In this document: positions 14,447-48,669 of the stretch, in pieces
Numbering within the stretch: position 1 is the first letter of the stretch
Layout of the letters: the number at the start of each line of letters is the position of its first letter
From: Phytoactinopolyspora alkaliphila
Lineage (GTDB): Bacteria > Actinomycetota > Actinomycetes > Jiangellales > Jiangellaceae
Direction: 5' to 3'
NCBI RefSeq assembly: GCF_010550695.1
Contig: NZ_JAAGOB010000015.1
Coordinates: 62,001 to 126,000, forward strand
Length of the DNA: 64,000 nt
Translations under genes and position numbers: made by a program
The notes under the pieces: generated by a model
Database searches by the model: none
What the model was told of the DNA's origin: nothing
What the model saw: the letters and a program-made list of their open reading frames with translations, nothing else

Positions 14447-14475
14447 GTTCAACTTCCGTTCACGTAATGTTCAGT
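14447..14475. promoter_or_regulatory. PHO box (three PhoP direct-repeat units)
   Basis: GTTCAAC, GTTCACG and GTTCAGT start at 14447, 14458 and 14469, exactly 11 bp apart, matching the actinobacterial PhoP unit GTTCACC. The array ends 10 bp from the DUF47 start codon. Confidence 0.85.
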
Positions 14476-20150: not shown

Positions 20151-20179
20151 CCAAACCTCCACTATGCGCCGACCTGAAA

Positions 20180-20228
20180 CTTAACGTTCAAGCTCCACAT
20201 TGATAACAGTGGAGGATGTTAAGATACA
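20180..20228. promoter_or_regulatory. Divergent promoter/operator between FGGY kinase and DeoR
   Basis: Two nested inverted repeats occur: CTTAAC (20180-20185) with GTTAAG (20218-20223), and CTCCAC (20193-20198) with GTGGAG (20209-20214). On the plus strand TTGATA (20200-20205), 17 bases, then GATACA (20223-20228) could be the promoter of the DeoR gene. The TTAACGTT core resembles the sites before the two ABC operons. Confidence 0.6.
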
Positions 20229-20324
20229 CCATGTTCCGATAGAGATCGGGCCGAAATGGGGAAGAGTTTCAATGACGCAGCGCGGTGCCGCGCACAACGC
20301 ACGTCGGTAGGACAGACTTGTCAC

Positions 20325-21131: not shown

Positions 21132-21482
21132 TACGGCTGCTCCAGCGAATCTTCGCACCGCACGTCCGGGGTGACGGTCACCGAGCTCGGACATCCCGGA
21201 TCCCTCCGCGATCACAGCTACCTGCACGCGGTGCGTCCCCGCTGGGCGGGCGATCACCTGACGCAACGCAGGGGCGGAGGGTGCGATGGACATCAGATCA
21301 CCTACCTTCCAATGAGCCTGCGTTGGCCGTCCGTTCATAACGTATTCAAGTTAACTCTATCGTTCTTTACGTTAATACTGTTAGAGTTTTGCCACGAAAG
21401 TTCGCCGACGGTCCCATTCCGGCGGCTCACCGCACCGGTTTCACACCATCGCCCGGCCCCACAACTCGGAAGGACCCCAGCG
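21132..21482. other. Non-coding gap upstream of the first ABC import operon
   Basis: No gene is supported in these 351 bases. The left 170 bases are ordinary GC-rich DNA; the AT-rich block at 21333-21400 holds the operator described separately and must contain the operon promoter. Confidence 0.7.
21333..21384 (+). promoter_or_regulatory. Operator/promoter of the first UgpB-like operon
   Basis: A low-GC block carries GTTA at 21350, 21371 and 21380 (spacing 21 and 9) and CTATCGT in between. The same layout is found at 28198-28233 with 25 of 36 bases identical, and TAAC-CTA-CGTT-ACGTTAATA recurs at 39406-39432. GTTCATAAC at 21333 also recurs at 34465. Probable binding site of the local DeoR proteins. 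Confidence 0.65.
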
Positions 21483-22832
21483 ATGAGACAACGGCTCGTG
21501 GCAGCGGCCGCCATCATGGCCGCACTCACACTCACCACCGCTTGCAACACCGGCGACGGCGGAGATGAAGGAGACGGAGGAAGCGCCGGCGACTTCGACG
21601 GGACGATCAGCTTCTGGTACGCCATGGCCGGCCGCAACGGCGAGGCCATCATCGAGCTCGTCGACCGCTACAACGAGCAGAACGACATGGACGTACAGGT
21701 CGAGGCGATCTACCAGGGCAACTACAACGACACACTCACCAAGTTGCGAGCCTCCGCGCAGTCCGGGGATCTGCCCAGCATGGTGCAGGTCAACGAGCTG
21801 AGCACGCGATTCATGTTCGACTCCGGCCTGGCGACCCCGGTACAGGAACTGGCCGACCGGGCCGGCTACTCCTTCGACGATCTCAACCAGAAGCTCGTCG
21901 ACTACTACACGGTGGACGGCGTGGTGCAGTCGATGCCGTTCAACGTGTCGGCTCCGACTCTGTACTACAACAAGGACGCCTTCGCGGAGGCAGGACTGGA
22001 TCCGGAGGACCCGCCGCAGACACTAGAGGCGATTCGGGATGCTGCCGGGCAGCTCGCCGGCGGCAGCACCGAGCACGGCTTCGTAGCCTCGATCGACGGC
22101 TATCTGATCGAGCAGTACCTCGCTATGGCCGACGCCCCCTACTGCGACGCGGGCAATGGCCGCGACGGCCTCGCCACCCAGGTGGAGTGGGACAACGACG
22201 TCACCGAGTACATCGTCGACTGGTGGGCCGGCATGGTCGAGGATGATCTGGCGGTCAACGTCGGCAGGAACAACAACAACGCCTCCGCCGCGTTCCAGTC
22301 CGGCAACGCCGCCATGATGACGTTCACCTCGGCAAACCTGCGCGACATCATCGATGGCTCGGACTTCGAGGTCGGCCTCGCACCCTTCCCGAAGCCGCGC
22401 GAGGGCGACGCCGGCGGGCCACTGCTCGGCGGCGGATCGCTCTGGGCTCTGGCGGGCCAGTCCGACGAGGCCAAGGACGCCGTCTTCGATTTCATGGCCT
22501 TCATGATGTCCCCGGAGAGCCAGGCGATGTGGTCCACTCAGACCGGCTACGTTCCAGTCAATGAGCGTGCCACCGAGTTGCCTGAGTACACCGAGGTCCT
22601 GGCCAACTACCCGGACCTCGAGCTCGCGGGTGAGCAGCTCGCCGGCACCCCGGAGGGCGCGAATACCACGGGTTGCCTGATGGGGGTCATGCCGCAGGCG
22701 CGGGACCGGATGAACGACGCCGTCGAGGCGGCGCTGCTCGGCGTGAAGGAACCGAGGCAAGCGCTGCAGGACGCCGCGGCATCACTGACGTCGGCGATCG
22801 AGCAGTACAACGATTCGGTCGGCACCAACTAG
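21483..22832 (+). CDS. UgpB-like extracellular solute-binding lipoprotein
   Basis: The 449-residue protein has a lipoprotein signal (lipobox LTTAC, Cys about 21), an acidic Gly/Asp linker and a family-1 solute-binding fold. ISFWYAM, YQGNYNDTL, MPFNVSAPTLYYNKDAFAEA with the following GLDPEDPP, and LGGGSLWAL match, by recall, the conserved landmarks of Escherichia coli UgpB, the sn-glycerol-3-phosphate/glycerophosphodiester binder. GGAAGGA precedes ATG 21483. It heads an operon with a glycerophosphodiester phosphodiesterase, IMPase-like enzyme and two permeases, which supports a phosphodiester-related ligand. A sugar ligand remains possible. Confidence 0.88.
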   Translation: MRQRLVAAAAIMAALTLTTACNTGDGGDEGDGGSAGDFDGTISFWYAMAGRNGEAIIELVDRYNEQNDMDVQVEAIYQGNYNDTLTKLRASAQSGDLPSMVQVNELSTRFMFDSGLATPVQELADRAGYSFDDLNQKLVDYYTVDGVVQSMPFNVSAPTLYYNKDAFAEAGLDPEDPPQTLEAIRDAAGQLAGGSTEHGFVASIDGYLIEQYLAMADAPYCDAGNGRDGLATQVEWDNDVTEYIVDWWAGMVEDDLAVNVGRNNNNASAAFQSGNAAMMTFTSANLRDIIDGSDFEVGLAPFPKPREGDAGGPLLGGGSLWALAGQSDEAKDAVFDFMAFMMSPESQAMWSTQTGYVPVNERATELPEYTEVLANYPDLELAGEQLAGTPEGANTTGCLMGVMPQARDRMNDAVEAALLGVKEPRQALQDAAASLTSAIEQYNDSVGTN

Positions 22833-22848
22833 GAGGCGAAGGACACTC

Positions 22849-23520
22849 GTGCTCACCTTGATCGGACACCGCGGAACCCCTTCCGAGTTCACCGAGAACA
22901 CGGTCACGTCGCTGCGAAACGCGGAGGCGCTGGGCGCCGACGGCGTCGAGTTCGACGTCCGGCTCACCCGGGACGGGGTTCCCGTACTCCTCCACGACGC
23001 TGATCTGAACCGGATCTGGGGCAGGCCCGACCAGCTGGCCGACGTCGACTTCGGCGATGTCAGCGACATCCTGCCGTCGTTGGCCGACGTGCTCGACGCG
23101 GTCTCGATCCAGCTCGTCGTCGACTGCAAGGGTTCTGGGACCGTCCAGCGAGCGATTCCGGTGCTACGGGACGGTGCGGCGCTGGACCGGTCCGTGTTCA
23201 TCGGTCAGCACGAGGTTCTTCGCGAGGTACGAGCGGAGCTGCCCGATGCTCGGCTCGCACTGTCCTGGGCCGGCGACAGTACGCCGCCGGCCCAGGTCGT
23301 GGAGGCGTTGCAGCCGGAGATCATGAACGTGCGCTGGCGCGACCTCGATCCGTCCGTCTTGGGCTGGTACCGAAGCGTCGGACTCACCACCTGGTGGACA
23401 TACACGATCGACGACGCCAATGCGCTCCGCCAAGCGGTAGACCTCGGCTTCACCGGACTCATCACCAACGATCTGCCCGGTGTCTCCGCGGCCGCGACGA
23501 AGACCGGGGTGGCGGGATGA
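22849..23520 (+). CDS. Glycerophosphodiester phosphodiesterase (cytoplasmic, UgpQ-like)
   Basis: A 223-residue GDPD TIM-barrel enzyme without signal peptide. It shows the active-site HR in GHRGTPSEFTENT, the metal-binding ExD in GVEFDVRLTRDG and the second His in LLHDADL. Such enzymes hydrolyse glycerophosphodiesters to an alcohol and glycerol phosphate. GTG 22849 has AGGAGG upstream and lies 16 bp after the binding-protein gene. Placement directly behind a UgpB-like gene parallels the enteric ugpBAECQ arrangement, implying that the diester is imported intact and split in the cytoplasm. Confidence 0.9.
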   Translation: MLTLIGHRGTPSEFTENTVTSLRNAEALGADGVEFDVRLTRDGVPVLLHDADLNRIWGRPDQLADVDFGDVSDILPSLADVLDAVSIQLVVDCKGSGTVQRAIPVLRDGAALDRSVFIGQHEVLREVRAELPDARLALSWAGDSTPPAQVVEALQPEIMNVRWRDLDPSVLGWYRSVGLTTWWTYTIDDANALRQAVDLGFTGLITNDLPGVSAAATKTGVAG

Positions 23521-24368
23521 CTCAGGACACTCGCACCGAGCGCGACCTCGGCGGGGCGCACGACGTCGCCATCGAGCTCACCAGGTGGGCGCAGGCCCGG
23601 ATCTCCGGCAGCAGACCGGGCAACGACGACGCGCAGGAGAAGGCCGGACCGGGCGACTGGGTGACCTCGGTGGACCGTGCCGTCGAGGAGCACATCCGGG
23701 CGGAGTTGCTCAGCCGGTTCCCGGGGGACGTCGTCGTGGGCGAAGAGGCCGGAACATCCTCCTCGCACCCGGACGACTCCGGCCGTGACTCGTTGACCTG
23801 GTACATCGACCCGATCGATGGCACCACCAACTTCGTCCACGGCCTGCCCGGTGTGAGTGTGAGCGTCGCCGCCGTGGACCCGCGAGGCACCGCCGTCGGC
23901 GTCGTGCACGACGTCTACCGGAACGAGGTGTTCAGCGCGATCCGGAACGGCGGAGCGAGGCTCGACGGCCGGCCCATCACCCCGGCCGTCGACCGTGCCG
24001 GCCTGCGCGGAGGGCTACTGCTCACCGAGTGGTCCGGTATCTCACCATGGACCGGCATGCAGGGCCTCATCGAGAGCCTGCAGGGTGAGTACACCGCCAC
24101 CCGGATCCTCGGGTCCTGCGCGCTCAGCCTGGCCTCCGTGGGCGCGGGCCGCGCCACAGCCGCGGTGCTCGGCGGGCACTACAACCCGTGGGACGTCCTC
24201 GCCGGGGCTCTGATCGCCGTCGAGGCCGGCTGCGTGATGTTCGACGTCGACGGCGCCGTCGACGCAGTGCCGATGACAGGCCTCGGGGTCGCACAGCCAG
24301 ACGTCGCGGAGACAGTTCAGCGCAGATGGAAGGCAGCCGCTGCCGAAAGCTCCGGAGGCCCGTCATGA
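23517..24368 (+). CDS. Inositol monophosphatase family phosphatase
   Basis: The 283-residue protein has the IMPase metal site: VGEEAGT, then WYIDPIDGTTNFVHGLPGVS, and the C-terminal YNPWDVLAGALIAVEAGC. The family removes phosphate from inositol, sugar or polyol monophosphates using Mg2+. ATG 23517 overlaps the GDPD stop (ATGA), and its own stop overlaps the permease start, so it is translationally coupled to both. The GDPD followed by an IMPase suggests sequential diester then monoester cleavage, for example glycerophosphoinositol to inositol, which is an inference. Confidence 0.9.
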   Translation: MTQDTRTERDLGGAHDVAIELTRWAQARISGSRPGNDDAQEKAGPGDWVTSVDRAVEEHIRAELLSRFPGDVVVGEEAGTSSSHPDDSGRDSLTWYIDPIDGTTNFVHGLPGVSVSVAAVDPRGTAVGVVHDVYRNEVFSAIRNGGARLDGRPITPAVDRAGLRGGLLLTEWSGISPWTGMQGLIESLQGEYTATRILGSCALSLASVGAGRATAAVLGGHYNPWDVLAGALIAVEAGCVMFDVDGAVDAVPMTGLGVAQPDVAETVQRRWKAAAAESSGGPS

Positions 24369-25321
24369 GCCAGCCCGCGGCGACGAAGACACGTATCTCC
24401 GGCACCGCGCCGCCGTCTGTTCCAGTGGGGAAACGGCCCAAGTACAACCGCCGCGAACTCCTGACCGCGGCGTTGCTTCTGTTGCCGTCGATGGCCATCT
24501 TCGCCGTCTTCAACTTCTATCCGCTGTTCCAGTCCATCTATCTGAGCCTCCACGCCAACGACATTCTCGGCCTGCCCACCCGGTTCGTCGGGATGGATCA
24601 GTACATCGAGTTCTTCTCCAACCCGGAGCTGCGCCGGATCACCGTGGTCACAGCGGTCTTCGTCGTCATGACCGCACTGCCGAGCGTGGTCATCGGGATC
24701 TTCCTGGCGTTGACACTGCAGGCACGGATCCGTGGCGTCAACGTCTTCCGCACGTTGATGTCGACGCCGTTCGGTTTCTCCGCCGCGGCGACGGCGGTGG
24801 TGTTCGCGGTCTTCTTCAATCCGGCCGTCGGAGTCTTCAACGGCATCCTGCGCATGATGGGGATGGACAGCGTCGGCTGGCTCACCAACCCGACCTTCGC
24901 ATTACCCAGCCTCGCCATGGTCTGCGTCTGGGGGAACATCGGCTACACGCTGCTGGTGGCGTCCGCTGGTCTGCAGAACATCCCCGACGAGCTGTACGAG
25001 GCCGCGCGCCTCGACGGCGCTGGTCGATGGACGGTGATCCGCCAGGTCGTCCTGCCTCTGCTCACACCCACCATCTTCTTCCTGATCGTGATCATGACGA
25101 TCAACTCGCTGCAGACCTTCGGCGAGATTCACATCCTCACCGGCGGCGGTCCCAACGGCGCGACCACCACCCTCGTCTACGGCATCTACCAGACGGCGTT
25201 CGCCTACGGCGGCAGCAACTACGGCCTGGCCTCGGTCCAGGCGGTGGTACTGCTCGTGGTGGTGACCGCGGCCACCTGGCTCCAGTTCCGAGTCCTCCAG
25301 CGCAAGGTGTTCTACGGATGA
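24365..25321 (+). CDS. Carbohydrate ABC transporter permease (UgpA-like)
   Basis: A 318-residue permease with six predicted helices, the first at LLTAALLLLPSMAIFAVF. The EAA loop that docks the ATPase reads YEAARLDGAGRWTVIRQVVL without the final residue. The start at 24365 overlaps the IMPase stop (ATGA) and its stop overlaps the second permease. It forms the import channel with the 25318 protein. No ATPase gene is nearby, so the importer probably uses a shared MsiK/UgpC-type ATPase encoded elsewhere, as is common in actinobacteria. Confidence 0.92.
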   Translation: MSQPAATKTRISGTAPPSVPVGKRPKYNRRELLTAALLLLPSMAIFAVFNFYPLFQSIYLSLHANDILGLPTRFVGMDQYIEFFSNPELRRITVVTAVFVVMTALPSVVIGIFLALTLQARIRGVNVFRTLMSTPFGFSAAATAVVFAVFFNPAVGVFNGILRMMGMDSVGWLTNPTFALPSLAMVCVWGNIGYTLLVASAGLQNIPDELYEAARLDGAGRWTVIRQVVLPLLTPTIFFLIVIMTINSLQTFGEIHILTGGGPNGATTTLVYGIYQTAFAYGGSNYGLASVQAVVLLVVVTAATWLQFRVLQRKVFYG

Positions 25322-26160
25322 GCACACAAACAGGCCTGTTCAGACCGAGCACACTTCGATCCCTGCCCGCCTACGCCGGGCTCACCGTCCTCACCGCGGT
25401 CATCGTCTTCCCGCTCTACTACGCCGTCGCCGGCTCAGTGATGACCGACCGGGAGCTGACGTCGTTCCCGCCCGCCCTGTTCCCCAGCGAATTCACGCTA
25501 CGCAACTATGCCGACGTGCTGGACGCCATACCCCTGATCCGGCAGTACTTCAACAGCATCTTCGTGGCCCTCGTGGTGGTGGGCGGAGCCGTCCTCACGT
25601 CGTTGCTGGCCGCGTACGCGTTCGTATTCCTCAGATTCCCACTGAAGAACACCCTGTTCGCCCTGTTCCTCGTCACCATCATGGTCCCCGGGGAATCGCT
25701 GATCATCCCTAACTACCTGACCATCTCCAACCTCGGCCTCCTCGACACCTTCCCGGCGCTGACGCTGCCGTTCCTGGCCATGGGGTTCGGCACATTCCTG
25801 CTGCGCCAGTTCTTCGCGTCGTTCCCCAAGGAGATCTACGAGGCGGCCCGGATGGACGGGTGCAGTCACATGCGGTTCATGTTCTCGATCCTGACCCCCC
25901 TGTCCCGGCCCGCGCTTGCGGCGCTGGCCATCTACGCCTTCATCACCACCTACAACAAGTACTTCTGGCCGCTTCTGGTCACCAGGACGCCGGAGATGCA
26001 GACGTTGCAGATCGGACTGAGTCAGCTGCGGTCCCTGGAGGCGCGCGACCCCGGCCTGATCCTGGCCGGCGTGACCTTGGCCATCATCCCCATGCTGATC
26101 CTCATCTACTTCTTCCAGCGCAACATCATCCGAGGGCTGACCAGCGGATCCGTCAAGTAG
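25318..26160 (+). CDS. Carbohydrate ABC transporter permease (UgpE-like)
   Basis: The 280-residue second channel subunit has six helices and the EAA loop IYEAARMDGCSHMRFMFSIL. Overlap with the first permease (ATGA at 25318-25321) indicates coupling. C-terminal FFQRNIIRGLTSGSVK is typical of UgpE/MalG-type subunits. It completes the binding protein and two-permease set of the first operon. Confidence 0.92.
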   Translation: MSTQTGLFRPSTLRSLPAYAGLTVLTAVIVFPLYYAVAGSVMTDRELTSFPPALFPSEFTLRNYADVLDAIPLIRQYFNSIFVALVVVGGAVLTSLLAAYAFVFLRFPLKNTLFALFLVTIMVPGESLIIPNYLTISNLGLLDTFPALTLPFLAMGFGTFLLRQFFASFPKEIYEAARMDGCSHMRFMFSILTPLSRPALAALAIYAFITTYNKYFWPLLVTRTPEMQTLQIGLSQLRSLEARDPGLILAGVTLAIIPMLILIYFFQRNIIRGLTSGSVK

Positions 26161-26283
26161 AGGCCACCACGCCAGGCGTTTGCGCCGCATGGGCGGTGCG
26201 GTACCGAGGCCGAAGCGACCTCAGACCGTCTGCCCAGCACGAGTGATCGAGTCCCATCCCCCACCCCCGAAGGAGAAAGACCC

Positions 26284-27948: not shown

Positions 27949-28310
27949 GGCAATCCCGTCCGGATACACCTTGATAACAGTCATCGTGGTGCTTGACTAC
28001 CAAACCGGCATCTCCGGGTCAGGGTTCACCGCTGGCGCCGGTTCCGTCATGGAAAGCATCTGACCGGCCGATCACGGCTTTGACCAGGCCATTTGAGACC
28101 ACGTACCTCGTGTCGCCACCCTCGCTCCGGATGCCGTTCAGGGTCCGGGGCGGGGCGTGGACACTTCCACGACACTCACATTTCGCGCTTCGTTTCTAGT
28201 TACATCTATCGTCAGCGATGTTAAATCTGTTACTGTCGGCTCGATCGTTCACGTGAATGACGGTCAGCCAGACAGTACAGACCAGTACCACGCCCCTGGA
28301 AGGCACTTCG
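27949..28310. other. Non-coding gap between the two ABC import regions
   Basis: No gene is supported. The first 240 bases show nothing recognisable; the operator at 28198-28233 lies at the right end, then a short leader to the TTG start at 28311. Confidence 0.6.
28198..28233 (+). promoter_or_regulatory. Operator/promoter of the second ABC import operon
   Basis: AGTTA, TCTATCGT, GTTAA and CTGTTA occur with the same spacing as in 21349-21384 (GTTA at 28199, 28220 and 28229). Identity is 25 of 36 bases although flanking DNA is unrelated, so the two operons probably share one repressor. Confidence 0.68.
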
Positions 28311-29282
28311 TTGACGTCTCACTCCACGGCATCGCCGCCCTCGTCCATCGGCGGCGACGCCGGTGCGCGCGGCGCAGCTGACCGTACCGTGACGCGGCGC
28401 CGGCGACGCCGCCACAGCCGCGAGTACCTCCTGTTCCTTGTCCTCGTCTCCCCGAACCTGCTGCTGATCGGCACGTTCGAGTACTGGCCGGTGATCTACA
28501 ACGCTTACCTGAGCCTGACTCGCTGGAACATGTTGTCAGGTGTGCCGGTCTGGGTGGGCCTGGACAACTACCAGAGCCTGTTGACCAGTTCGAGCTTCCA
28601 CACGGTCATGTACAACACGCTGCTGTTCACCGGCACCGTCGTGATCGGGAGCGTCGTGATCGGGTTGGCCCTCGCGGTGTTGTTCAACCAGAAGGTACGC
28701 GGCCGCGGATTCGTCCGCACGGTCGCCTTCGCCCCGCACATCGTGAGCGGCGCGGCGGTCGCCACCCTCTGGCTGTTCATCTTCAACCCGGACTACGGAC
28801 TGTCCCGCTTCGTGCTCAATCAGGTGGGGCTCTCTTCGCCGCGGTGGGTCTCGGACAGCGACTGGGCGCTGGCGAGCCTGATCATCGTGTTCCTCTGGAA
28901 GGGCATCGGGTTCGTCGCGATCGTCTACCTCGCCGGGCTGCAAAGCCTGCCGGAGGACGTCTACGAGGCGGCCAAGCTCGACGGCGCCCGGGCATGGACC
29001 ACATTCCGGCGGATCACTCTCCCGCTGTTGTCTCCGGTGACGTTCTTCGTGCTGGTCATCACCATCATCGGCACGTTCCAGGCGTACGACATGATCGCCG
29101 TGATGACCGGCGGCGGTCCGGGGAACGCCACGACCACCCTCTCCTGGTACATCTACGAACAGGGGTTCCAGGCTTCTGACGCCGGCCGCGCGGCCGCGAG
29201 CGCCATGATCCTCTTCGTCATCCTGCTCATCGTCACCGGTCTGCAGACGAAGTATGCGCAGCGCAAGGTCCACTACCAATGA
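28311..29282 (+). CDS. Carbohydrate ABC transporter permease (UgpA/MalF type)
   Basis: A permease of about 323 residues with an Arg-rich cytoplasmic N-terminus (TVTRRRRRRHSREYLLF), six helices and the EAA loop VYEAAKLDGARAWTTFRRIT. TTG 28311 is preferred because GGAAGG lies seven bases upstream; ATG 28257 in the same frame has no ribosome site and sits close to the operator. The stop overlaps the next permease start (ATGA, 29279-29282). No ATPase gene is present in the operon. Confidence 0.9.
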   Translation: MTSHSTASPPSSIGGDAGARGAADRTVTRRRRRRHSREYLLFLVLVSPNLLLIGTFEYWPVIYNAYLSLTRWNMLSGVPVWVGLDNYQSLLTSSSFHTVMYNTLLFTGTVVIGSVVIGLALAVLFNQKVRGRGFVRTVAFAPHIVSGAAVATLWLFIFNPDYGLSRFVLNQVGLSSPRWVSDSDWALASLIIVFLWKGIGFVAIVYLAGLQSLPEDVYEAAKLDGARAWTTFRRITLPLLSPVTFFVLVITIIGTFQAYDMIAVMTGGGPGNATTTLSWYIYEQGFQASDAGRAAASAMILFVILLIVTGLQTKYAQRKVHYQ

Positions 29283-29464
29283 GCGGCGAGACGAGGAGCG
29301 AGCGTAGTGGACGGTCCGACGAAGGAGGTCCGGCCGCGGAGCAAGCGACGAACCGAGCGCGACCACAGGCAATGAGCGGCGAGACGAGGAGCGAGCGTAG
29401 TGGACGGTCCGACGAAGGAGGTCCGGCCGCGGAGCAAGCGACGAACCGAGCGCGACCAGAGGCA
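29279..29464. repeat. Two 93-bp in-frame tandem repeats at a permease junction
   Basis: Units 29279-29371 and 29372-29464 are identical except for one base (Gln versus Glu codon). Each is 31 codons, begins ATGAGCGGCGAG and ends with ...GGCA before the next ATG, so the ATGA-type junction and reading frame are preserved. A partial third version (ATGAGGAACGAGAGGAGCG) follows at 29465. Confidence 0.95.
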
Positions 29465-30382: not shown

Positions 30383-30430
30383 CCCGGCTCGTGTATCACT
30401 CGACGTTCGATTGAAAGGACGCGTACCACC

Positions 30431-31825
30431 ATGAGTAACAGACTTCCCCGTCACAGTTCCCTCCGCCGGCCGAGCCGCCGGTCCTTCCTCGGCATGACCG
30501 CTGCCGGCCTGAGCGTGCCGATCCTGGGCTCGTGCGCAGGTGGCGTCAGTTCCAGCGACGACGGCGAGGGTGGCGGGAACGAACTCGGCCAGGTCGACAT
30601 CAGCCCGCCCAGCAAGTACCGCGGACGTGACGTGAACGTCGTCATGTGGAGCGCCATGGGCGGTGTCAACGGCGAGGCCCTCGACGCGCTGGTCGAGAAG
30701 TTCAACGAGTCGCAGGATTCCATCTACGCCGAGGTCCAATTCCAGGGCAACTACCACGAGTCGTCGCCCAAGCTGACCGCGGCGTTGCGCGCCGGTGCCG
30801 TGCCGGACATCATGATGCTCGCCGACACATTCTGGGGCAGGTTCCTGCTCAACGACGTTTTGGAGCCGCTGAACGGCTACTTGACCGACGACTTCAACCG
30901 CGACAACTATGTCGAGGCTCTGTTCGACGAAGGGCTCGTCGGTGATGAGCTGTACTGGCTGTCCTACGGCCGCAGCACGCCGCTGTTCTACTACAACAAG
31001 GACGCGTTCGCTGAGATCGGCCTACCCGACCGCGGGCCGGAGACGTGGACCGAGCTGCGCGAGTGGGGCGCGGAGCTGTCCAAGCTGACTGTGCAGGGCC
31101 AGCCGCTGAAGGTGCACGCCTTCACCGGGGATGACGACTGGCAGTTCATGTCCGCTGCCTGGCAGTTCGGCGGCAGCCTCTCCGACGGTCTCGATGTCAC
31201 CATCAACACCGGCGGTGCCGTCGACGCGGCCGCATGGCAGCAGCGGTTCATCTTCGAGGACCAGATGGGCTACATGGCGGAGAGCTCCGCGGTCGACTTC
31301 GGCACCGGCGTCGTCGCCACCACCATCACCTCCACCGGTGCGCTGCGCGGCATTTACGAGAACGCTGAGTTCGAGGTGGGCACCGCGTTCCTGCCGGCAG
31401 AGGTCACCACCGGCGTCCCCACCGGCGGCATGGGCTTCTCCCTGCTGCGCGACGTGCCGCAGGAGCGCAAGGACGCCGCCTTCGAGGTATTGAAGTTCCT
31501 CGGCCAGCCGGACAACGCGGCGGAATGGAGCCTTGCGTCCGGATACCTGCCGATCGTCAAAGCAGCGGTCGATGAGCCTGAGCTCGCCGAACAGATCGCG
31601 GAGGACCCGAACCGCAGCACGGCGGTGGAGCAGCTGCCGATGGCTCAAGGTAGCGACGCGATCCGCTCCTACCTGCCCAACGGCACGGACATCATCATCA
31701 GCGGACTGCAGGAGATCTTCAGCAGTGGTAGCGCGGACGTCCAGAGCGTCTTCGACCGCGTAGCAGGCGAGCTGGAGGAAGGCGTCGAGCGCATCCGGGA
31801 CGACTACGACCGCTACTTCGGCTAG
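30431..31825 (+). CDS. Extracellular solute-binding lipoprotein (UgpB-like), Tat-exported
   Basis: The 464-residue protein has a Tat motif and lipobox in one signal (RRSFLGMTAAGLSVPILGSC). The binding domain has MWSAMGGVNGEALDALV, FQGNYHESSPKL, SYGRSTPLFYYNKDAFAE and a family-1 fold, like the 21483 protein but clearly diverged, so a related yet different ligand is likely. ATG 30431 follows GAAAGGA. It lies after the two permeases and before a 21-bp hairpin and a GDPD gene, giving the second operon an order permease-permease-binding protein-GDPD. Confidence 0.88.
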   Translation: MSNRLPRHSSLRRPSRRSFLGMTAAGLSVPILGSCAGGVSSSDDGEGGGNELGQVDISPPSKYRGRDVNVVMWSAMGGVNGEALDALVEKFNESQDSIYAEVQFQGNYHESSPKLTAALRAGAVPDIMMLADTFWGRFLLNDVLEPLNGYLTDDFNRDNYVEALFDEGLVGDELYWLSYGRSTPLFYYNKDAFAEIGLPDRGPETWTELREWGAELSKLTVQGQPLKVHAFTGDDDWQFMSAAWQFGGSLSDGLDVTINTGGAVDAAAWQQRFIFEDQMGYMAESSAVDFGTGVVATTITSTGALRGIYENAEFEVGTAFLPAEVTTGVPTGGMGFSLLRDVPQERKDAAFEVLKFLGQPDNAAEWSLASGYLPIVKAAVDEPELAEQIAEDPNRSTAVEQLPMAQGSDAIRSYLPNGTDIIISGLQEIFSSGSADVQSVFDRVAGELEEGVERIRDDYDRYFG

Positions 31826-31852
31826 AGGGCCCGGCCGCGAGGCAAGTACCGC

Positions 31853-31902
31853 GTTGCGTCCTGCAGGGCGAGCGCTCGAGGGCTCGCCCTGCAGGACGCA
31901 AC
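31853..31902. terminator. Strong stem-loop between binding protein and GDPD genes
   Basis: A perfect 21-bp inverted repeat (31853-31873 with 31882-31902; arms GTTGCGTCCTGC... and ...GCAGGACGCAAC) with an 8-base loop. It has no T-tract. It probably protects the binding-protein mRNA 3' end and reduces read-through into the GDPD gene, which begins 19 bp later. Confidence 0.75.
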
Positions 31903-31920
31903 ATGAAACATGGAGTATGA

Positions 31921-32631
31921 ATGAACTTCATCAACTGCGGCCATCGGGGCGCGATGAGCACGGCACCGGAGAACACCCTGTCCTCCTTCGCCGCCGCGGT
32001 CGAACAAGGCGCCAACGAGATCGAGCTGGACCTACGGTTGTCGAAGGACGGCACCATCGTCGTCATTCACGACGCCACGGTCGACCGCACGACGGACGGC
32101 TCCGGGGCGGTCTCGACGCTGACACTGGACGAGCTGCGCACCTTCGACGCCGGCGACAGTGAACGCATACCCACGTTCGACGAGGTCCTGGACGCCACAG
32201 ATGTGGCGCTGCAGATCGAGATCAAGGACCCAGCCGTCATCGAGCCGCTGTCGGCTCTGCTGGCGGACCGCGCCGATCACCTTGACCGGCTCTCTCCCAC
32301 CAGTTTCGACGAGGATGTCGTCGGCGACGTCGCCCGCAGGCTGCCGTCCACTCTGGTGGGTTTGATCTCCAAGACCGCCTCCTACGAGCTGCTCGACAGA
32401 GCAGAGGCGCTCGGGGCCCGCCGGGTCCTGGTGGGATGGGAAGGTACCGACCGTCCGCTGGTCCGAACGGCGCAGGACCGCGGCTTCCACGTCAACGTCT
32501 GGCCGGTCAATTCCGCCGAACAGCTGCGCACCGCGGCCGAGCTCGGTGTCGACGGCTTCACCACCGACTATCCCGGCCTACTGTTCGAGCACGGCTACGA
32601 CCTACGCGACGGCCGGCTCGTCAGCCGCTGA
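31921..32631 (+). CDS. Glycerophosphodiester phosphodiesterase
   Basis: A 236-residue cytoplasmic GDPD: GHRGAMSTAPENTLSSFA, metal-binding IELDLRLSKDG and VVIHDATVDRTTDG. It is a second, diverged copy of the 22849 enzyme, again placed behind a UgpB-like gene. GGAG precedes ATG 31921. Its last 11 bases overlap the end of the convergent metallophosphoesterase gene. It probably splits the diester imported by the second ABC system. Confidence 0.9.
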   Translation: MNFINCGHRGAMSTAPENTLSSFAAAVEQGANEIELDLRLSKDGTIVVIHDATVDRTTDGSGAVSTLTLDELRTFDAGDSERIPTFDEVLDATDVALQIEIKDPAVIEPLSALLADRADHLDRLSPTSFDEDVVGDVARRLPSTLVGLISKTASYELLDRAEALGARRVLVGWEGTDRPLVRTAQDRGFHVNVWPVNSAEQLRTAAELGVDGFTTDYPGLLFEHGYDLRDGRLVSR

Positions 32632-34186
32632 GCGGAACCATGAGGTGGACGTTGCGGTCCACCGGCGTGCCGCCCAGCCCGTATCGGGCGCCGCCACGCC
32701 AGACATCGTTCGCGGCGAGCTGGCGGTGTAGAGAGGCCAGCTCGGCCACGTCCGTCGGCTCCGGACCGGGGTCGAGCGGCGCCCCGTGGTCGACGATGGT
32801 GGACGTGATCCGGAGCACCCCGTCGTCCTGCTGGATCAGCTCCAGGACCCTCGCCTGCGTGGGATAGTCGGTCATGGACGCGGTGGTGACTTCGAACAGA
32901 CCGCCCCCACCTCGGCGGTGGTGTGCCACGATGCGGTTGGCGTGGTGGTGGCCGTTGAGCCACAGAACCACGTTGGGGCAGGACAGCGCCACCTCCAGCA
33001 ACTCCGCGGCGTACGCGACGCCCGCCGGTGAGTCTGGGCAGATGCCGTAGCCGTTGCCCATGGACGGCGTGCCGTGATGGGAGGCGAGGATGACGACCGG
33101 CTGGTCCGGCCCGGTCAGTGCCCGAAGCTCGTCGGCCAGCCACGACAACTGTTCCCGGTCGATGCTGCCGTCCCACATCCCCTCGCGATGGTTCGTGTCC
33201 AGAACGAGGATGCACACGCCTGGAGCAGGGTCGTGACGGAAATAGCCCGTGCCCGTGTCCTGGTTGGACTCGGTGAACCCATGGCCGGCCGGGCCGGGAC
33301 CGCCTTCGCGGGCACGGTGAGCGGCCACGTAGCCGGCTGTATCCACCAGGTGCCGTTCTGGGTCGGGACTCACCTCGCGCGCCGGACCGGAGAAGATCGC
33401 CGACGGCCGCGCGAGAAAGGTGGTGAGTTCCTCTCCGGCGACGATGCCGTCCGGCAACGCCACCGGCTTGCTGTCTCCGGTGGCGATCAAGCTGAGGTCC
33501 CTTGAAGGGGCTGTGGTGCCGCCGACCAGGGCGTCGTGATTGCCCAGGCATGCCAGCCAGGGAGCGCCGACGCCCGGCGAATCGAACGGCTTGGAGGCGG
33601 CCGGAATCACCTGCGGCAACGTCGGGTACCCCCACAGTCGCTGGTATCGGCTGTCCCCCGTCTCCGGCACCCAGTACCACGGATCACCCCAGCCGGGACT
33701 CTGCGGGCCGTGATAGACGCCCCCGGCCGAGACGGGACGCACGACGCCGCCGTCCATCACCGACAGATACACCTCGACCTCGTTGAACTGGGCGTTGTCG
33801 ACGCTGTCCCCGGTCAGGACGGCGACATCGAGCTCGAGACGGGACAGGGTCTCCACCATCGCCGCTACAGCGTGACTGGTCAGGAGCTCGTTGGCCCGGA
33901 ACGCGTAGGTCGCGGCGCCTCCCCAGCCGGGCCGCTCAATGGCGGTCTTGGCGGCGAAGTCCAGTCGCAGCGGTGACTGTGTATCAGCGATGTGGAGGTC
34001 GGTGAGGTGCGCGGATCGCAGAAGAGGCCGTCCTGGCCCCACCACCGCGCCAGGGACCAGATCTGCTCGCACCCCGTGCGCTTCGCCCGGTGCCTCGTCG
34101 AATCCGAAGTACGGGTGCTCAAGGCCGTACCGGATTGGACGTCCGATGACCAGGGTTCGCTCCGTGGTGCTTCCGTGCTCACGCAT
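32621..34186 (-). CDS. Metallophosphoesterase (TIGR03767-like)
   Basis: The 521-residue protein contains calcineurin-type metal motifs: SAHLTDLHIADTQSP (DxH), LTGDSVDNAQ (GDxxDN), CLGNHDALV (GNHD), ILASHHGTPS and NGHHHANR (GHxH). The long insert between the second and third motifs fits the actinobacterial TIGR03767 group. There is no signal peptide. The substrate is unknown, but its place beside GDPD, in a region rich in phosphodiester genes, suggests a phosphomono- or diester. GGGAG precedes ATG 34186. Confidence 0.85.
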   Translation of the reverse strand: MREHGSTTERTLVIGRPIRYGLEHPYFGFDEAPGEAHGVRADLVPGAVVGPGRPLLRSAHLTDLHIADTQSPLRLDFAAKTAIERPGWGGAATYAFRANELLTSHAVAAMVETLSRLELDVAVLTGDSVDNAQFNEVEVYLSVMDGGVVRPVSAGGVYHGPQSPGWGDPWYWVPETGDSRYQRLWGYPTLPQVIPAASKPFDSPGVGAPWLACLGNHDALVGGTTAPSRDLSLIATGDSKPVALPDGIVAGEELTTFLARPSAIFSGPAREVSPDPERHLVDTAGYVAAHRAREGGPGPAGHGFTESNQDTGTGYFRHDPAPGVCILVLDTNHREGMWDGSIDREQLSWLADELRALTGPDQPVVILASHHGTPSMGNGYGICPDSPAGVAYAAELLEVALSCPNVVLWLNGHHHANRIVAHHRRGGGGLFEVTTASMTDYPTQARVLELIQQDDGVLRITSTIVDHGAPLDPGPEPTDVAELASLHRQLAANDVWRGGARYGLGGTPVDRNVHLMVPLSG

Positions 34187-34591
34187 CTCGCACTCCCATC
34201 ACCGATGGCGCCGCGCGCGACGCGGAAGGCGCAGCGCGTCGATACGTCCGACGCGCCGCGCTTCCGCACAGGCACACACAGCATTGCTGATGAGAAACTA
34301 GCGGCAGTTCACGATAATCTCAATCCCCTCAGACCGCCCACGGTGGGACGAACCGGCGACCTCCGCCAGTGAGGGATGATGGTCTCTTCGATCAAGAAGT
34401 GGATGTGACCAGGTCTTTTGATGCAAAGGATGGTGCGACCATGACGACGAGCGGAGCGGGAGGAGTTCATAACATATTTTCTGTTAATTCTTCTCGACTT
34501 GGCCCAGAAGATCGGCGGCCGGTCCACCTACCGCCCGGCAGTCCGTCCGGCGGCTCCTGCCCGGATACCGTGTGTGCGCGCTCGTGGCGGA
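34187..34591. other. Non-coding gap upstream of the metallophosphoesterase
   Basis: No convincing gene in 405 bases. An AT-rich block near 34465-34495 has GTTCATAAC and, 18 bases on, GTTAA, like the 21333 region, and a TAACA-N7-TGTTA palindrome at 34471-34487. It may be a regulatory site for the phosphoesterase, though it is nearly 300 bp from that start codon. Confidence 0.4.
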
Positions 34592-36775
34592 TCAGCTCCC
34601 CGCTGCGGCCAGGTCCTGGCCGGCGTCGACGCGGACCGCCTCGATCAGTGCGAGCCGTTCCGGATAGAGCGTCGGCGCCTGCACCCCGGCCTCGGAGGCG
34701 AACTGGCCGGTGACCACGGCGCCGTCCTCCCACCATCCCAGTGGTGAGCGGGTGGGACCGTCGATGCGATCGCCCGGAGGCAGCGGCGCGATCCGGTAGC
34801 GCGAGCGGGGGTCCAGGCCTGGGAGCCTGATCAGGCCGGTAGGCGCCTGCGCGCTGGTGGCCAGCTGTACCACCGCGAAGATCGCCCGGGATCGATCCGC
34901 AGCGACGACGCCGTGCACAAGAACCGCCGGGTCGGGATGATCGCCTCGCACTACGTCTCCGGTGTGCAGCAGCTCACGGATCCGCTTGTACAAGGCCACC
35001 CAGCCGCCCAGTTCCCGGCGTTCCTCCGGGGTGGCCGTGGTGAGGTCCCATTCGATGCCGAAGTGGCCGAACAGGGCCGTCCCCGCCCGGAAGCCGAGAG
35101 TGTGTCTGCGTCCCGTGGTGTGCGACACGGTGGCACCTACGTGCGCTCCGATCATGTCGAGCGGCACCAGGAGGCTGGTCCAGAGCTGTATCTGCTGGCG
35201 TTCCAGGGCATCGATGCAGTCCGAGGCCCAGATCCGGTCGGTGCGCTCGAGGATGCCGAGATCCACCCGGCCGCCGCCCGACGAGCACGACTCGATCTCC
35301 ACCTGCGGATGCCGGACCTTCAGCTCGTCGATCAGCCGGTATGTGGCCAGCGTCTGCCGGTGCACCGCCGCCGAGCCGCCATCGCCCCGGTGACCCGCGT
35401 CCACGAGATCCCGATTGTGGTCCCACTTGAGATACCCGATGGGATACTCGCTGAGCAGGGCGTCGAGCCGCTCCAGGATGTAGGCGTACGCGCCCGGATG
35501 GCCGAGATTGAGTACCTGCTGATGCCGGGCCTCCGGAGGCAACCGGTCACCGGCGGCCATGATCCACTCCGGGTGGGCTCTCGCCAAGCGGGAGTCCGGA
35601 TTGATCATCTCCGGTTCCACCCACAAGCCGAACTGCATGTCCAGCTTGGCAACGTGGTCGATCAACGGGTGCAGCCCGTCGGGCCAGACGTCGGTGTCCA
35701 CGTACCAGTCGCCGAGCCCGGCGCGGTCGTCGCGTCGGCCGCTGAACCACCCGTCGTCGAGCACGAACCGCTCCACGCCCACGTCGGCCGCCAGGTCGGC
35801 GAGCTGGCTGAGCCGGCCCAGGTCGTGGTCGAAGTAGACCGCTTCCCACGTGTTCAGCGTGACCGGCCGAGGCGAGCGGGCGTGTCCGGGACGGTGGCGA
35901 AGATGCTGGTGGAAGCGGCGCGAGACCTCGTCCAGCCCGTCGCCGTGTGAGCCGTAGATCCAGGGACTGGTGTAACGCTCCCCCGGGGCGAGACGGACCT
36001 CGCCGGGCAGAAGCAACTCGCCGCCGGCCAGGACGGCAACACCACGCGGCGTACGCTCAGCCAGGACGCGGTGGTTGCCGCTCCAGGCGACGTGCATCGC
36101 CCACACCGCGCCGGACCGGAATCCGAAGCCGCTCTCACCCGCCGCGAGCAGCAGGGTCGCGTCGAGTCCGGTGCGCCCGCGGCGGTTCTCCCGCAGATAC
36201 GTGCCGGCGGTGAACCGCGACCGCTGCGGGCTGCGCTCCCGCAAGTGTCGGCCCGTCATGTCGAGGAGCTCAGTCGCGACGGCCGGGACCGGCAGCGCCA
36301 GGTTCAGCCCGTCGACAACGTAGGTGTCCTCGCCCGTGTTCTCGACGCTCGCCCGCATCCGTACGAGTCCGGCGCCCGTCACGCCGATCTCCAGGATCAG
36401 CCGGAGGCGCGCGGCCGCGTCCTCCGCCGTGATCGTCACGTTCCTGCCGCCATCGGCCACGGCATCGGCTCGGCCAGCGACGGCGAACAGTGCCGAGAAC
36501 GCCGGGCCACCGCGGTGTCCCGAGAGCCCGGGAGTGCCGGTCCATCCGTAGGCGGGTTCAGGAAGCAGCCCGACCGGAACATCCCGGTCGATGCTGTTGT
36601 ACACCTGCTGCGGGCGCCGGGTCAGCGCCACGGCGGCCAGCTCGTCGTCGCTGAGCTCGCCCAGGTCGCGTCCCCAGTACACGACATGTGGCAGCTGGCT
36701 CCCCCGGCACTCAATCAGCAGGCTCGTTCCGCCCGCCCGGCAATGTATGAGCTCGTGGGCTTCGTCAGAGGTCAT
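34592..36775 (-). CDS. Alpha-galactosidase (GH36)
   Basis: The 727-residue protein has an N-terminal beta-sandwich, a TIM barrel with nucleophile Asp452 in GYLKWDHNRD and acid/base Asp519 in RIWASDCIDALERQ, the CSSGGGRVD substrate motif and a C-terminal beta domain. This is the GH36 alpha-galactosidase layout, hydrolysing terminal alpha-galactosides with retention. No signal peptide, so it acts on imported oligosaccharides. GGGAG precedes ATG 36775; GTG 36790 is possible. It is divergent from a ROK regulator. TTGACA (36833-36838, minus strand) may be its -35 box. Confidence 0.92.
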   Translation of the reverse strand: MTSDEAHELIHCRAGGTSLLIECRGSQLPHVVYWGRDLGELSDDELAAVALTRRPQQVYNSIDRDVPVGLLPEPAYGWTGTPGLSGHRGGPAFSALFAVAGRADAVADGGRNVTITAEDAAARLRLILEIGVTGAGLVRMRASVENTGEDTYVVDGLNLALPVPAVATELLDMTGRHLRERSPQRSRFTAGTYLRENRRGRTGLDATLLLAAGESGFGFRSGAVWAMHVAWSGNHRVLAERTPRGVAVLAGGELLLPGEVRLAPGERYTSPWIYGSHGDGLDEVSRRFHQHLRHRPGHARSPRPVTLNTWEAVYFDHDLGRLSQLADLAADVGVERFVLDDGWFSGRRDDRAGLGDWYVDTDVWPDGLHPLIDHVAKLDMQFGLWVEPEMINPDSRLARAHPEWIMAAGDRLPPEARHQQVLNLGHPGAYAYILERLDALLSEYPIGYLKWDHNRDLVDAGHRGDGGSAAVHRQTLATYRLIDELKVRHPQVEIESCSSGGGRVDLGILERTDRIWASDCIDALERQQIQLWTSLLVPLDMIGAHVGATVSHTTGRRHTLGFRAGTALFGHFGIEWDLTTATPEERRELGGWVALYKRIRELLHTGDVVRGDHPDPAVLVHGVVAADRSRAIFAVVQLATSAQAPTGLIRLPGLDPRSRYRIAPLPPGDRIDGPTRSPLGWWEDGAVVTGQFASEAGVQAPTLYPERLALIEAVRVDAGQDLAAAGS

Positions 36776-36968
36776 GGAGTCTCCCAGCACGGCGATCAGG
36801 TGCTGATTAGTTTTGTGTCAGAACTTATGATTGTCAACAGCCCGCAAGAACGTCACCTTCGCCGTGATCACCGGGCGAGGACCGACGTGCCTCCCGCTAA
36901 TATTTGTCGTTGCCGAATTAATCCAGATGGCTAGACTGACGTCCCCAGACATGGTGTGAGGGGGTTCG

Positions 36969-38120
36969 ATGGGCGTGGCACGGCCGCTGTGGAACGGACT
37001 CACCGACCCCGCGCGCTCGGTCGCACTGGAGGTGCTCCATCACGGTCCCCTGTCCCGCGCGGAGCTCGCGCGGCGGCTGTCGCTGTCGGCCGGTAGCCTC
37101 ACCAGGCTGTCCAAGCCGCTGCTGGATATCGGGGTTCTCACGGAGATCGGGACCGACGCCGAGAGGCGCATCGGCCGTCCGGCCGTTCTGCTCGACGTCG
37201 TGCCGTCATCGCGCCATTTCATCGGGGTCAAGCTGACCGGCGACGAAGCTCACGCGGTCCTGACCACACTCCGCGCCGAGGTGGTCGCCAGCGAGCGGGC
37301 GCCGCTGACCAGTCATCGCCCGGAAGACGTCGTCGCCATCGTGACCCGTCTTGTCCAGGACCTCTCGGACCACGTGGACGGCGTCGCCGCGCTCGGAGTG
37401 AGCTTCGGCGGAACTTCCCTGGACAGCGCGACCGTCGCGAGCGCCTTCTATCTCGAGTGGACCGATGTCCCGCTGGCCAGGATGCTCGCCGACGCCACCG
37501 GCATTCCCGCCGTCATCGAGAACGACGTCGTGGCGGTCACCGAGGCTGAGCACTGGTTCGGCGCGGGACGGCAATGCGAGCGGTTCGCCGTCATCACCAT
37601 CGGCGTGGGCATCGGATACGGGCTAGTCGTCCACGACCGGCTCGTCACCAGCCTGGACGTCGGGATCGGGCTGATCGGTCACGTGCCGCTCGATCCGCTC
37701 GGGCCGCGATGCCCCTTGGGCCACCGCGGGTGTGCCTACGCCATGCTCTCCATTCCCGCTATCCGCTCGTCGGTCTCCGTGGCGCACGGGCGAGACGTCT
37801 CCTACGACGAGTGCCTAGATCTCGCGGTGGCAGGCGACCCCCCGGCCCGGCGGGTGATCGACGACGCCGGTGGGGCGCTCGGGCAACTGGTTGCTCTGGT
37901 GGCCAATCTGACCATGCCGCACAAGGTCATGGTCGCTGGTGACGGCGTGCGATTGGCGCACGTCGCGCGGCCTGCGGTACTCCGCCGCATCCGCGATCAG
38001 CGCGACCCGAGAGCTGCGCCGGTCGATCTGGACGTCCAGGAGTTCGGCTTCCTGGAGTGGGCTCGCGGGGCAGCCGTGATCGCCATTCAAAAATACGTCC
38101 TGGACGAGCTGTCCCAGTGA
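36969..38120 (+). CDS. ROK-family transcriptional regulator with degenerate zinc site
   Basis: The 383-residue protein has an N-terminal winged HTH (SRAELARRLSLSAGSLTRL) and a ROK sugar-kinase-like domain (GVSFGGTSL, ENDVVAVTEAEHW, ITIGVGIGYGLV). The usual CxCGxxGCxE zinc motif reads CPLGHRGCAYA, missing one Cys and the Glu. GAGGGGG lies upstream of ATG 36969. It is divergent from alpha-galactosidase and likely controls it in response to a sugar. The incomplete zinc site and END rather than DND suggest altered ligand binding or loss of kinase activity. Confidence 0.88.
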   Translation: MGVARPLWNGLTDPARSVALEVLHHGPLSRAELARRLSLSAGSLTRLSKPLLDIGVLTEIGTDAERRIGRPAVLLDVVPSSRHFIGVKLTGDEAHAVLTTLRAEVVASERAPLTSHRPEDVVAIVTRLVQDLSDHVDGVAALGVSFGGTSLDSATVASAFYLEWTDVPLARMLADATGIPAVIENDVVAVTEAEHWFGAGRQCERFAVITIGVGIGYGLVVHDRLVTSLDVGIGLIGHVPLDPLGPRCPLGHRGCAYAMLSIPAIRSSVSVAHGRDVSYDECLDLAVAGDPPARRVIDDAGGALGQLVALVANLTMPHKVMVAGDGVRLAHVARPAVLRRIRDQRDPRAAPVDLDVQEFGFLEWARGAAVIAIQKYVLDELSQ

Positions 38121-38121
38121 C

Positions 38122-38169
38122 GATCAGATGGCCGGCGCGGCGTGATCTCGTCGTACCGGCCATCTGATC
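38122..38169. terminator. Bidirectional stem-loop between convergent genes
   Basis: GATCAGATGGCCGG (38122-38135) pairs perfectly with CCGGCCATCTGATC (38156-38169), a 14-bp stem with a 20-base loop, placed between the stops of the ROK gene and the TagC-like gene. No T-tract. Confidence 0.7.
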
Positions 38170-38214
38170 TGTGCGCCCATCTGACCTGTCTCGCCCGGTG
38201 ACGCAAACCCCGCG

Positions 38215-39357
38215 TCAGCGGCGCGGCGCGTCCTTGTACAGGATGGTGCAGAGCCGGTCGTCGGCCGGGTCGGCCGTCACGCTGGTGCCGAAGGCGAAGC
38301 CCAGGCGAGCGCTCTTGAGCTGACCAGGTGCGGACAGCCACACACCCATGCCTTCCGGCTCACGCCGGTGCAGTTCGTGGAAGTCGGTGACCCAGACCCG
38401 CTGCTCGACCTCACCGGTCCGCCAGTTGACCCTGGTCAAGTGGGTGTTTCCACGTCCCTCGGGCGGGTTGGAATCGTTGTAGATCTGACCGTCGAGGAGG
38501 TAGAGGTACTGTCCGAAGGTCGCGTAGCCCTGGAAGGTGGTGCCGATGAGCACGTCGGGCTGCGCGACGTCCGCGATCGGTTCGTAACTGTCACGTTCGT
38601 CGCGCACGTGGTCGAGCCGGAACAGCCCGTACCGGAAGCTGCCGTCCCTCCGGTACCGCATCACCAGGGTGCGGTACGCCGGGTCCACGTTGCAGGTGGT
38701 GCGGTCGACTCCCGGGACGAGCACCCGCCGCTGGAGGCCGGTGTCGCGTTCGGCATCGATGACGGCCCCGTCCTCGAACGGGAACCGGAGCAGGCGCGTT
38801 CCCCAGCCGCTGGCTCCCTCGGTGACGGCGTCGACCTCAGTCCAGAGATGCACGGACTGCCCGGTGCGCTCCACACCGATCGCCACGCCGTGTCCGAACC
38901 GCTTGAGGTACATGTGCCCGAGCATGTTTCCAGCCAGGTCGAGCTTCGTCATGGTCAGATCGCCGCGCGCGTTGCGGCGGGCATACTCTTCGTCGCCGGG
39001 CTCGTCGCCGGGCAGAGTGGTGCCGGCCTGGGTGAGCTGCACAACGTAGACGTGGCCACCGACGCTGTCCACCGCGAACGACTGCATGATGGTGCGCTGG
39101 TCCTTCAGACCGGCGTTGACGAACTGGGCACTGGTGGGACCCTCCAGATCGAACCAGGCCGAGACCGGAACCCGCCGCTGAGATGTGGCCGCCGCGGTAC
39201 CGCCCGGGCCAGTAGCCCACGCCGGTATGCCGGCACCGGCGGCGCCCGCGGCGAGGGTAGTGGCAGCCGCGGCTCCCAGCCCGAAGAGCCGCCGCCGGCT
39301 CATCGAGGTGCCACGGGGCATGGGGTCGCCATTGCCAGTCCTGCTCCGCTCCGCCAT
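38215..39357 (-). CDS. Tat-exported TagC-like/phage-P68-RBP-like beta-propeller protein
   Basis: A 380-residue protein from ATG 39357 (GGAGGAGGAG upstream). It has a Tat signal (SRRRLFGLGAAAATTLAAGA, cleavage near AWATGPG), then a repetitive beta-rich domain (QSFAVDSVGGHVYVVQL, NMLGHMYLKRFGHGVAIGVE, GYATFGQYLYLLDGQIYND). By recall this matches the TagC-like/P68 receptor-binding beta-propeller family, annotated as teichoic acid biosynthesis protein C or baseplate protein. The name implies no proven function; binding or cleaving wall polymers is plausible. It is monocistronic with an operator-like site upstream shared with both ABC operons. Confidence 0.72.
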   Translation of the reverse strand: MAERSRTGNGDPMPRGTSMSRRRLFGLGAAAATTLAAGAAGAGIPAWATGPGGTAAATSQRRVPVSAWFDLEGPTSAQFVNAGLKDQRTIMQSFAVDSVGGHVYVVQLTQAGTTLPGDEPGDEEYARRNARGDLTMTKLDLAGNMLGHMYLKRFGHGVAIGVERTGQSVHLWTEVDAVTEGASGWGTRLLRFPFEDGAVIDAERDTGLQRRVLVPGVDRTTCNVDPAYRTLVMRYRRDGSFRYGLFRLDHVRDERDSYEPIADVAQPDVLIGTTFQGYATFGQYLYLLDGQIYNDSNPPEGRGNTHLTRVNWRTGEVEQRVWVTDFHELHRREPEGMGVWLSAPGQLKSARLGFAFGTSVTADPADDRLCTILYKDAPRR

Positions 39358-39401
39358 GTTCTCCTCCTCCACGCGCCGTGCGGCGCTAATTCTCACGGAT
39401 G

Positions 39402-39437
39402 GAGGTAACGCTAACGTTGAAAGACGTTAATAACAAG
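39402..39437. promoter_or_regulatory. Operator/promoter of the TagC-like gene
   Basis: TAACGCTAACGTTG followed by ACGTTAATA (39406-39432) matches the first ABC-operon site (TAACTCTATCGTTC then ACGTTAATA, 21352-21377) apart from one extra spacer base and a few changes. On the minus strand TTGTTA, 17 bases, TAGCGT overlap the site and form a plausible promoter for the gene starting at 39357. Confidence 0.65.
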
Positions 39438-47509: not shown

Positions 47510-48659
<1,150 letters not shown>

Positions 48660-48669
48660 AGGTGCGCGG

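Follow-up and report, generated by a model that had tools for sequence, protein, structure and literature searches.

We analysed a 64,000-nucleotide stretch of Phytoactinopolyspora alkaliphila DNA (contig NZ_JAAGOB010000015.1, positions 62,001 to 126,000; the whole stretch is called the window), in which similar sequence blocks precede two ATP-binding cassette (ABC) transporter operons and a TagC-like gene and lie between the divergent kinB and deoR1 genes. The repeated blocks are very probably a shared DeoR operator, one type of control site for four transcription units. From the alignments we infer that all of the sites are versions of a single operator composed of GTTAA half-sites. The original prediction had used a shared operator-like site to link the kinase/deoR region with both ABC operons and the TagC-like gene. 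The analysis supports this: the site is unique in the genome, relatives keep it at the same promoters, and orthologous deoR genes of other actinomycetes have a matching operator next to them.

The blocks at 21349-21384 and 28198-28233 were identical at 25 of 36 positions. GTTA started at 21350, 21371 and 21380 in the first block and at 28199, 28220 and 28229 in the second, giving spacings of 21 and 9 in both, and these figures from the original prediction proved exact on recount. Its statement that the flanks differ also held: the 60-bp flanks shared only 10/60 and 14/60 identities. The next-best window matches to either block reached 19-22 of 36, the 22 arising when site 1 is compared with its reverse complement, and 25 identities were never attained by composition-matched random sequences (n = 20,000; maximum 24). 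A degenerate consensus of the ABC blocks, allowing up to three mismatches, found these two sites only in the 5.5-Mb genome, and its reversed-pattern control found none; GTTA-N17-GTTA-N5-GTTA likewise matched just twice in that genome. At ABC operon 1 the putative operator (21350-21387, plus strand) is a GTTAA-N16-GTTAA direct repeat of 21 bp whose third GTTA merges into the predicted -10 element (TAGAGT, 21382-21387). At ABC operon 2 (28199-28236, plus strand) it reads GTTA-N17-GTTAA-N4-GTTA, with a predicted -10 element at 28231-28236 (TACTGT).

A second geometry was seen at the other two promoters. The words that the original prediction had quoted for 39406-39432, and TTAACGTT in the palindrome at 20180-20223, were present in the window, and comparison refined the conserved core to TTAAC-N10-GTTA, which is common to 39404-39430 and 20204-20222 and is kept in relatives. 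The putative tagC operator (39404-39436, minus strand) consists of this inverted pair and a third half-site, GTTACC, which together span 39430-39404, and is enclosed by a predicted promoter on the same strand, TTGTTA (39436-39431)-N17-TAGCGT (39413-39408). In the kinB/deoR1 intergenic region the candidate operator (20181-20222) comprises TTAACATCCTCCACTGTTA (minus strand, 20222-20204) and, 22 bp further from it at the edge of the region, an outer GTTAA half-site (20185-20181), to which the TTAACGTT word at 20181 belongs.

Bacterial genomes scanned with DeoR1 yielded 78 loci, and the Jiangellaceae were compared in 22 genomes, 12 of which carry a deoR1 orthologue. The pattern GTTA-N17-GTTA-N5-GTTA matched 18 times in the 22 genomes, at this gene cluster, and its reversed pattern not at all; GTTAA-N16-GTTAA matched 19 times, in every case at the coordinates of this cluster, although many of these sites belong to Jiangella species too closely related for them to count as independent. 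A block near GTTAAGTCTATCGTTCTTTGTGTTAAGTCTGTTACGGTC lay upstream of the perm2A orthologue in Jiangella and Phytoactinopolyspora, or of SBP1 in a second cluster. The operon 1 site was kept upstream of SBP1 at four loci (L013, L014, L223 and L224) and Jiangella and its relatives kept the operon 2 site ahead of perm2A, with a spacing of 22 bp in genome G026. Information content averaged 1.59 bits per position in the aligned ABC block, compared to 0.3-1.0 in the flanks. Its third GTTA ran into TAnnnT at 18 of 18 sites, as expected if these bases form a -10 element.

The inverted pair TTAAC-N10-GTTA was likewise kept at kinB/deoR1 in Jiangellaceae loci, and at the same place in L077, which lacks deoR1. 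At tagC the same layout was found in G027 and G026, where, as in the window, the operator takes up the 17 or 18 bases between the two elements of a predicted TTGTnn...TAnnnT promoter. The tagC promoters of G024 and G025 carry a 21-bp GTTAA direct repeat instead of the inverted form, and in G026 the direct and inverted forms coincide (GTTAACTTAACAGCAAATTTAGTTAA). This interchange of the two forms among relatives at one promoter is our strongest argument for a single type of regulator that recognises both geometries. The G026 tagC promoter (L217, 14139-14165) holds a complete operator, GTTAAcTTAACagcaaatttaGTTAA, overlapped by a further TTAAC-N8-GTTAA, and would be the naturally occurring site best suited to binding assays. 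In Jiangella, tagC is located after GDPD2 of ABC operon 2, and no GTTA site was present in the upstream stretch read.

The same half-site was associated with deoR outside the family. Among 69 outgroup loci of other actinomycetes, 1.30 Mb in all, the pattern TTAAC-Nx-GTTA was sought for every x between 0 and 25 and occurred only at x = 9; there were 36 matches, 34 of them within 1.5 kb of deoR. GTTAA-N1-TTAAC (23 matches) and GTTAA-N1-TTCAC (22 matches) were all near deoR, and the reversed-word controls gave two matches, neither near deoR. The three-half-site form TTAAC-N9-GTTAA-N1/2-TTAAC had spacers of 9 and 1 in 41 loci and of 9 and 2 in 18, other combinations occurring in at most six. In 35 of the outgroup loci a half-site lay inside a predicted promoter with a TTG-type -35 and a CATGAT-like -10 element 17-18 bases apart. 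With its 10-bp spacer, the tagC site of the window, TTAACGTCTTTCAACGTTAGCGTTACC, is a version of this three-half-site operator. Outgroup loci such as L020, L033 and L064 carry TGTTAAATTAACA or GTTAATTTCAC near deoR with a TTG...CATGAT promoter, an arrangement that is conserved across several actinomycete orders and stands beside a cluster of kinase, 2-hydroxyacid dehydrogenase, phosphatase and DeoR genes.

The candidate regulators are DeoR1 (20256-21131, plus strand) and its paralogue DeoR2 (17151-17969, minus strand), which are 53% identical and share the recognition helix SLMTVHRDLDEL. Both score above the gathering threshold for an N-terminal HTH_DeoR and a C-terminal DeoRC sensor domain. 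As would be expected of a local DeoR operator, the repeat is conserved, specific within the genome and placed in promoters of the regulators' own neighbourhood. MTVHRDLD was present in all homologues whose helix was extracted, a sample that leans towards this helix because the peptide was one of the six search patterns of the homologue scan. The genome encodes six further DeoR proteins (L003-L008); their helices are of the T[IV]RRD type, and their loci contain neither a GTTAA nor a TTAAC word.

Several points weigh against a shared DeoR operator. The middle half-site of the ABC sites reads ATAGA where GTTAA is expected. The promoter positions are predictions, and the link between helix and half-site is a correlation over few DeoR proteins. 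The number of family matches overstates their independence. G019 has deoR2 and the kinB operon, and no exact site was found there. Scattering of the motif at random through the genome, the objection raised by the original prediction itself, does not apply to the direct repeat. Taken by itself, the inverted repeat is less specific, with two of its four copies in the window's genome lying in the cluster and two outside it, and matches to its control pattern occur in some relatives.

On the basis of the sites, their conservation, their specificity and their overlap with predicted promoters, all read from sequence, we propose a model in which binding, repression, inducer and substrate are putative. 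The operators would be served by a DeoR subfamily whose local members are the paralogues DeoR1 and DeoR2. In its basic form the operator would be TTAAC-N9/10-GTTAA-N1/2-TTAAC, three copies of the GTTAA half-site read by a helix-turn-helix (HTH) with the recognition helix SLMTVHRDLDEL; in Jiangellaceae the inner spacer is 10 bp. The kinB/deoR1 region would have retained the inner inverted pair. The ABC promoters would have retained the two outer half-sites, now a direct repeat of 21 bp with a degenerate middle half-site (ATAGA); tagC carries the inverted or the direct form, and both in one relative. The DeoR proteins would repress all four transcription units and be released from the operators by a phosphorylated pathway metabolite. 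With two UgpB-type importers, glycerophosphodiesterases, two sugar or polyol kinases, a phosphatase and the TagC-like protein, the regulon probably serves the scavenging of glycerophosphodiesters or teichoic-acid-like material. Repression is likely, and is favoured over activation because the sites overlap predicted -35 and -10 regions.

We also considered a split in which the direct repeats of the ABC operons are bound by DeoR1 alone and the inverted repeats of the kinase operon and tagC by DeoR2 alone, the two sites looking alike by descent. The exact 21-bp direct repeat was confined to the same 12 of 22 genomes that carry a deoR1 orthologue, and deoR2 and the inverted site are present in L077 (G021) and G008, which have neither deoR1 nor a direct repeat. 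A strict rule of DeoR1 for direct and DeoR2 for inverted sites, drawn from this 12/12 co-occurrence, was overturned by G026, which lacks deoR1 yet has a 22-bp-spaced direct repeat upstream of perm2A. G026 is the sole deoR1-lacking genome of the family set with a close perm2A orthologue, and the lack of such an orthologue in the others explains the co-occurrence, which therefore reflects the ABC operon and is no proof of DeoR1 specificity. The alternation of the two forms at tagC and the identical recognition helices of DeoR1 and DeoR2 also argue against such a division, and we consider it unlikely. In G026, DeoR2 alone probably suffices. The common helix and the retention of sites without DeoR1 favour the reading of one half-site by both proteins, and on balance we lean towards both proteins reading both geometries.

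The ABC block might alternatively be a promoter for a dedicated sigma factor or activator and no DeoR operator. It lies upstream of the operon every time and ends in the invariant TAnnnT, as such a promoter would. The half-site is also present in different geometries at kinB/deoR1, at tagC and beside outgroup deoR, however, and at tagC the half-sites sit between separate -35 and -10 elements, which makes this explanation improbable. DeoR itself could still act as an activator.

Operons of the ugp type are often under Pho control, and a box for PhoP, the phosphate-starvation regulator, would fit the UgpB-like importers and tandem repeats about two turns apart. Tandem GTTCACC-type units every 11 bp were sought in the window and were not found at these promoters; the sole strong repeat of this type was at 14447, by the PhoU/Pit genes. 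The half-site here is GTTAA, the spacing is 21 bp and the sites are tied to deoR genes, so that a PhoP box is very unlikely. The Pho-box-like tandem repeat itself, GTTCAACTTCCGTTCACG (14447-14470), lies just upstream of the PhoU-like/Pit phosphate-transport genes. Chance likeness between AT-rich promoter pockets of a GC-rich genome has a negligible probability, having been refuted already by the conservation of the sites, along with their uniqueness and fixed spacing.

DeoR-family repressors of sugar-phosphate catabolism in E. coli include GlpR, AgaR, UlaR, SrlR and DeoR, each with its operators. Like these, the window proteins combine HTH_DeoR with a DeoRC sensor domain, their sites lie in promoters of uptake and kinase operons, and a regulator gene adjoins its regulon and apparently belongs to it. 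Unlike the named regulators, neither DeoR1 nor DeoR2 reached any NCBIfam equivalog cut-off (best scores 128.8 bits against 260 for AgaR, 127.5 against 400 for YgbI and 121 against 300 for GlpR_Halo). Their helix core is TVHRD, compared to T[IV]RRD in other DeoR proteins of the genome, and their putative operator is an array of GTTAA half-sites, unlike the E. coli operators. Also related are the FGGY-kinase/2-hydroxyacid dehydrogenase/phosphatase/DeoR clusters of Streptomyces, Saccharopolyspora, Amycolatopsis and others, with a homologous DeoR, the same core helix and the TTAAC-N9-GTTAA operator. The spacer is 9 bp in those clusters and 10 bp in Jiangellaceae, and the Streptomyces locus read has a major facilitator superfamily (MFS) transporter where the Jiangellaceae regulon has ABC importers.

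The system is a newly described instance of ordinary bacterial gene control. A search of open-licence papers gave no description of the present operator, which is no proof that it is undescribed. Chances are about even that this is an undescribed actinobacterial DeoR subfamily (TVHRD helix, GTTAA half-site) with a modular three-half-site operator, in which inverted and direct pairs swap at orthologous promoters and the spacer shifts from 9 to 10 bp between lineages, controlling glycerophosphodiester or teichoic-acid scavenging. Sequence evidence would join four transcription units, including a TagC-like protein and two Ugp-type importers, as one regulon. It also yields a testable recognition rule, GTTAA being the word that helix SLMTVHRDLDEL would read, for a regulator subfamily that extends over several orders of actinomycetes. 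The natural variation (direct or inverted, 9 or 10 bp, 21 or 22 bp, one or two DeoR paralogues) suits the study of how operator geometry changes without loss of the regulator.

The kinase operon, kinB-hisP-deoR2-kinA, is on the minus strand and begins with the FGGY carbohydrate kinase gene kinB (18633-20162). It includes hisP, of the histidine phosphatase superfamily (17953-18636), and a second FGGY kinase gene, kinA (15587-17059), xylulokinase-like and below the cut-off; a 2-hydroxyacid dehydrogenase gene and phosphate-transport genes follow the operon. ABC operon 1 has the order SBP1-GDPD1-IMP-perm1A-perm1B-pectate-lyase-like, and ABC operon 2 perm2A-perm2B-SBP2-GDPD2. The closest solved structure to the UgpB-like solute-binding protein SBP1 (21483-22832, plus strand) was E. 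coli UgpB (4aq4, 1.4e-59); for SBP2 (30431-31825, plus strand), of the actinobacterial UgpB/UspB-like type, it was mycobacterial UgpB/UspB (6r1b, 1.8e-63). The first gene of operon 2 encodes the ABC permease perm2A (28257-29282, plus strand), matched by its orthologues. The TagC-like protein (38215-39396, minus strand) contains a 5-bladed propeller domain (PF21311), and its translation, inspected by eye, shows a putative signal sequence.

Both ABC operons contain a UgpB-like binding protein, permeases and a glycerophosphodiesterase-like gene, and are in this respect like Ugp systems for sn-glycerol-3-phosphate and glycerophosphodiester uptake. Unlike those systems, they have a DeoR-linked operator and no recognisable Pho box, and the candidate regulon includes FGGY kinases and the TagC-like protein. 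The gene content suggests that the products take up and use glycerophosphodiesters, of which teichoic acids may be the source. The perm2B open reading frame opens with a near-perfect tandem duplication (29279-29460; SGETRSERSGRSDEGGPAAEQATNRARP twice), and the conserved permease part starts downstream of it; the duplication may be an intergenic DNA repeat and no true coding sequence.

The alpha-galactosidase/ROK intergenic region contained no GTTA half-site, and these genes were left out of the regulon. A TTAAC-N9-GTTA sequence at 34469-34487 lies upstream of a metallophosphoesterase gene (32621-34186, minus strand), whose promoter in Jiangella carries GTTAATCTATCATG...TTTTAACATC, and this gene could be a further regulon member. 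The 9-bp-spacer inverted repeat at 34470-34487 was dropped as a regulon target, the pattern being no commoner than its control in Jiangellaceae. A long imperfect inverted repeat at 48540-48700 (AAATGATCATGTTAACCA ... TGGTTTACATGATCATTT) precedes the gene at 47510-48553 and resembles an operator for some other regulator.

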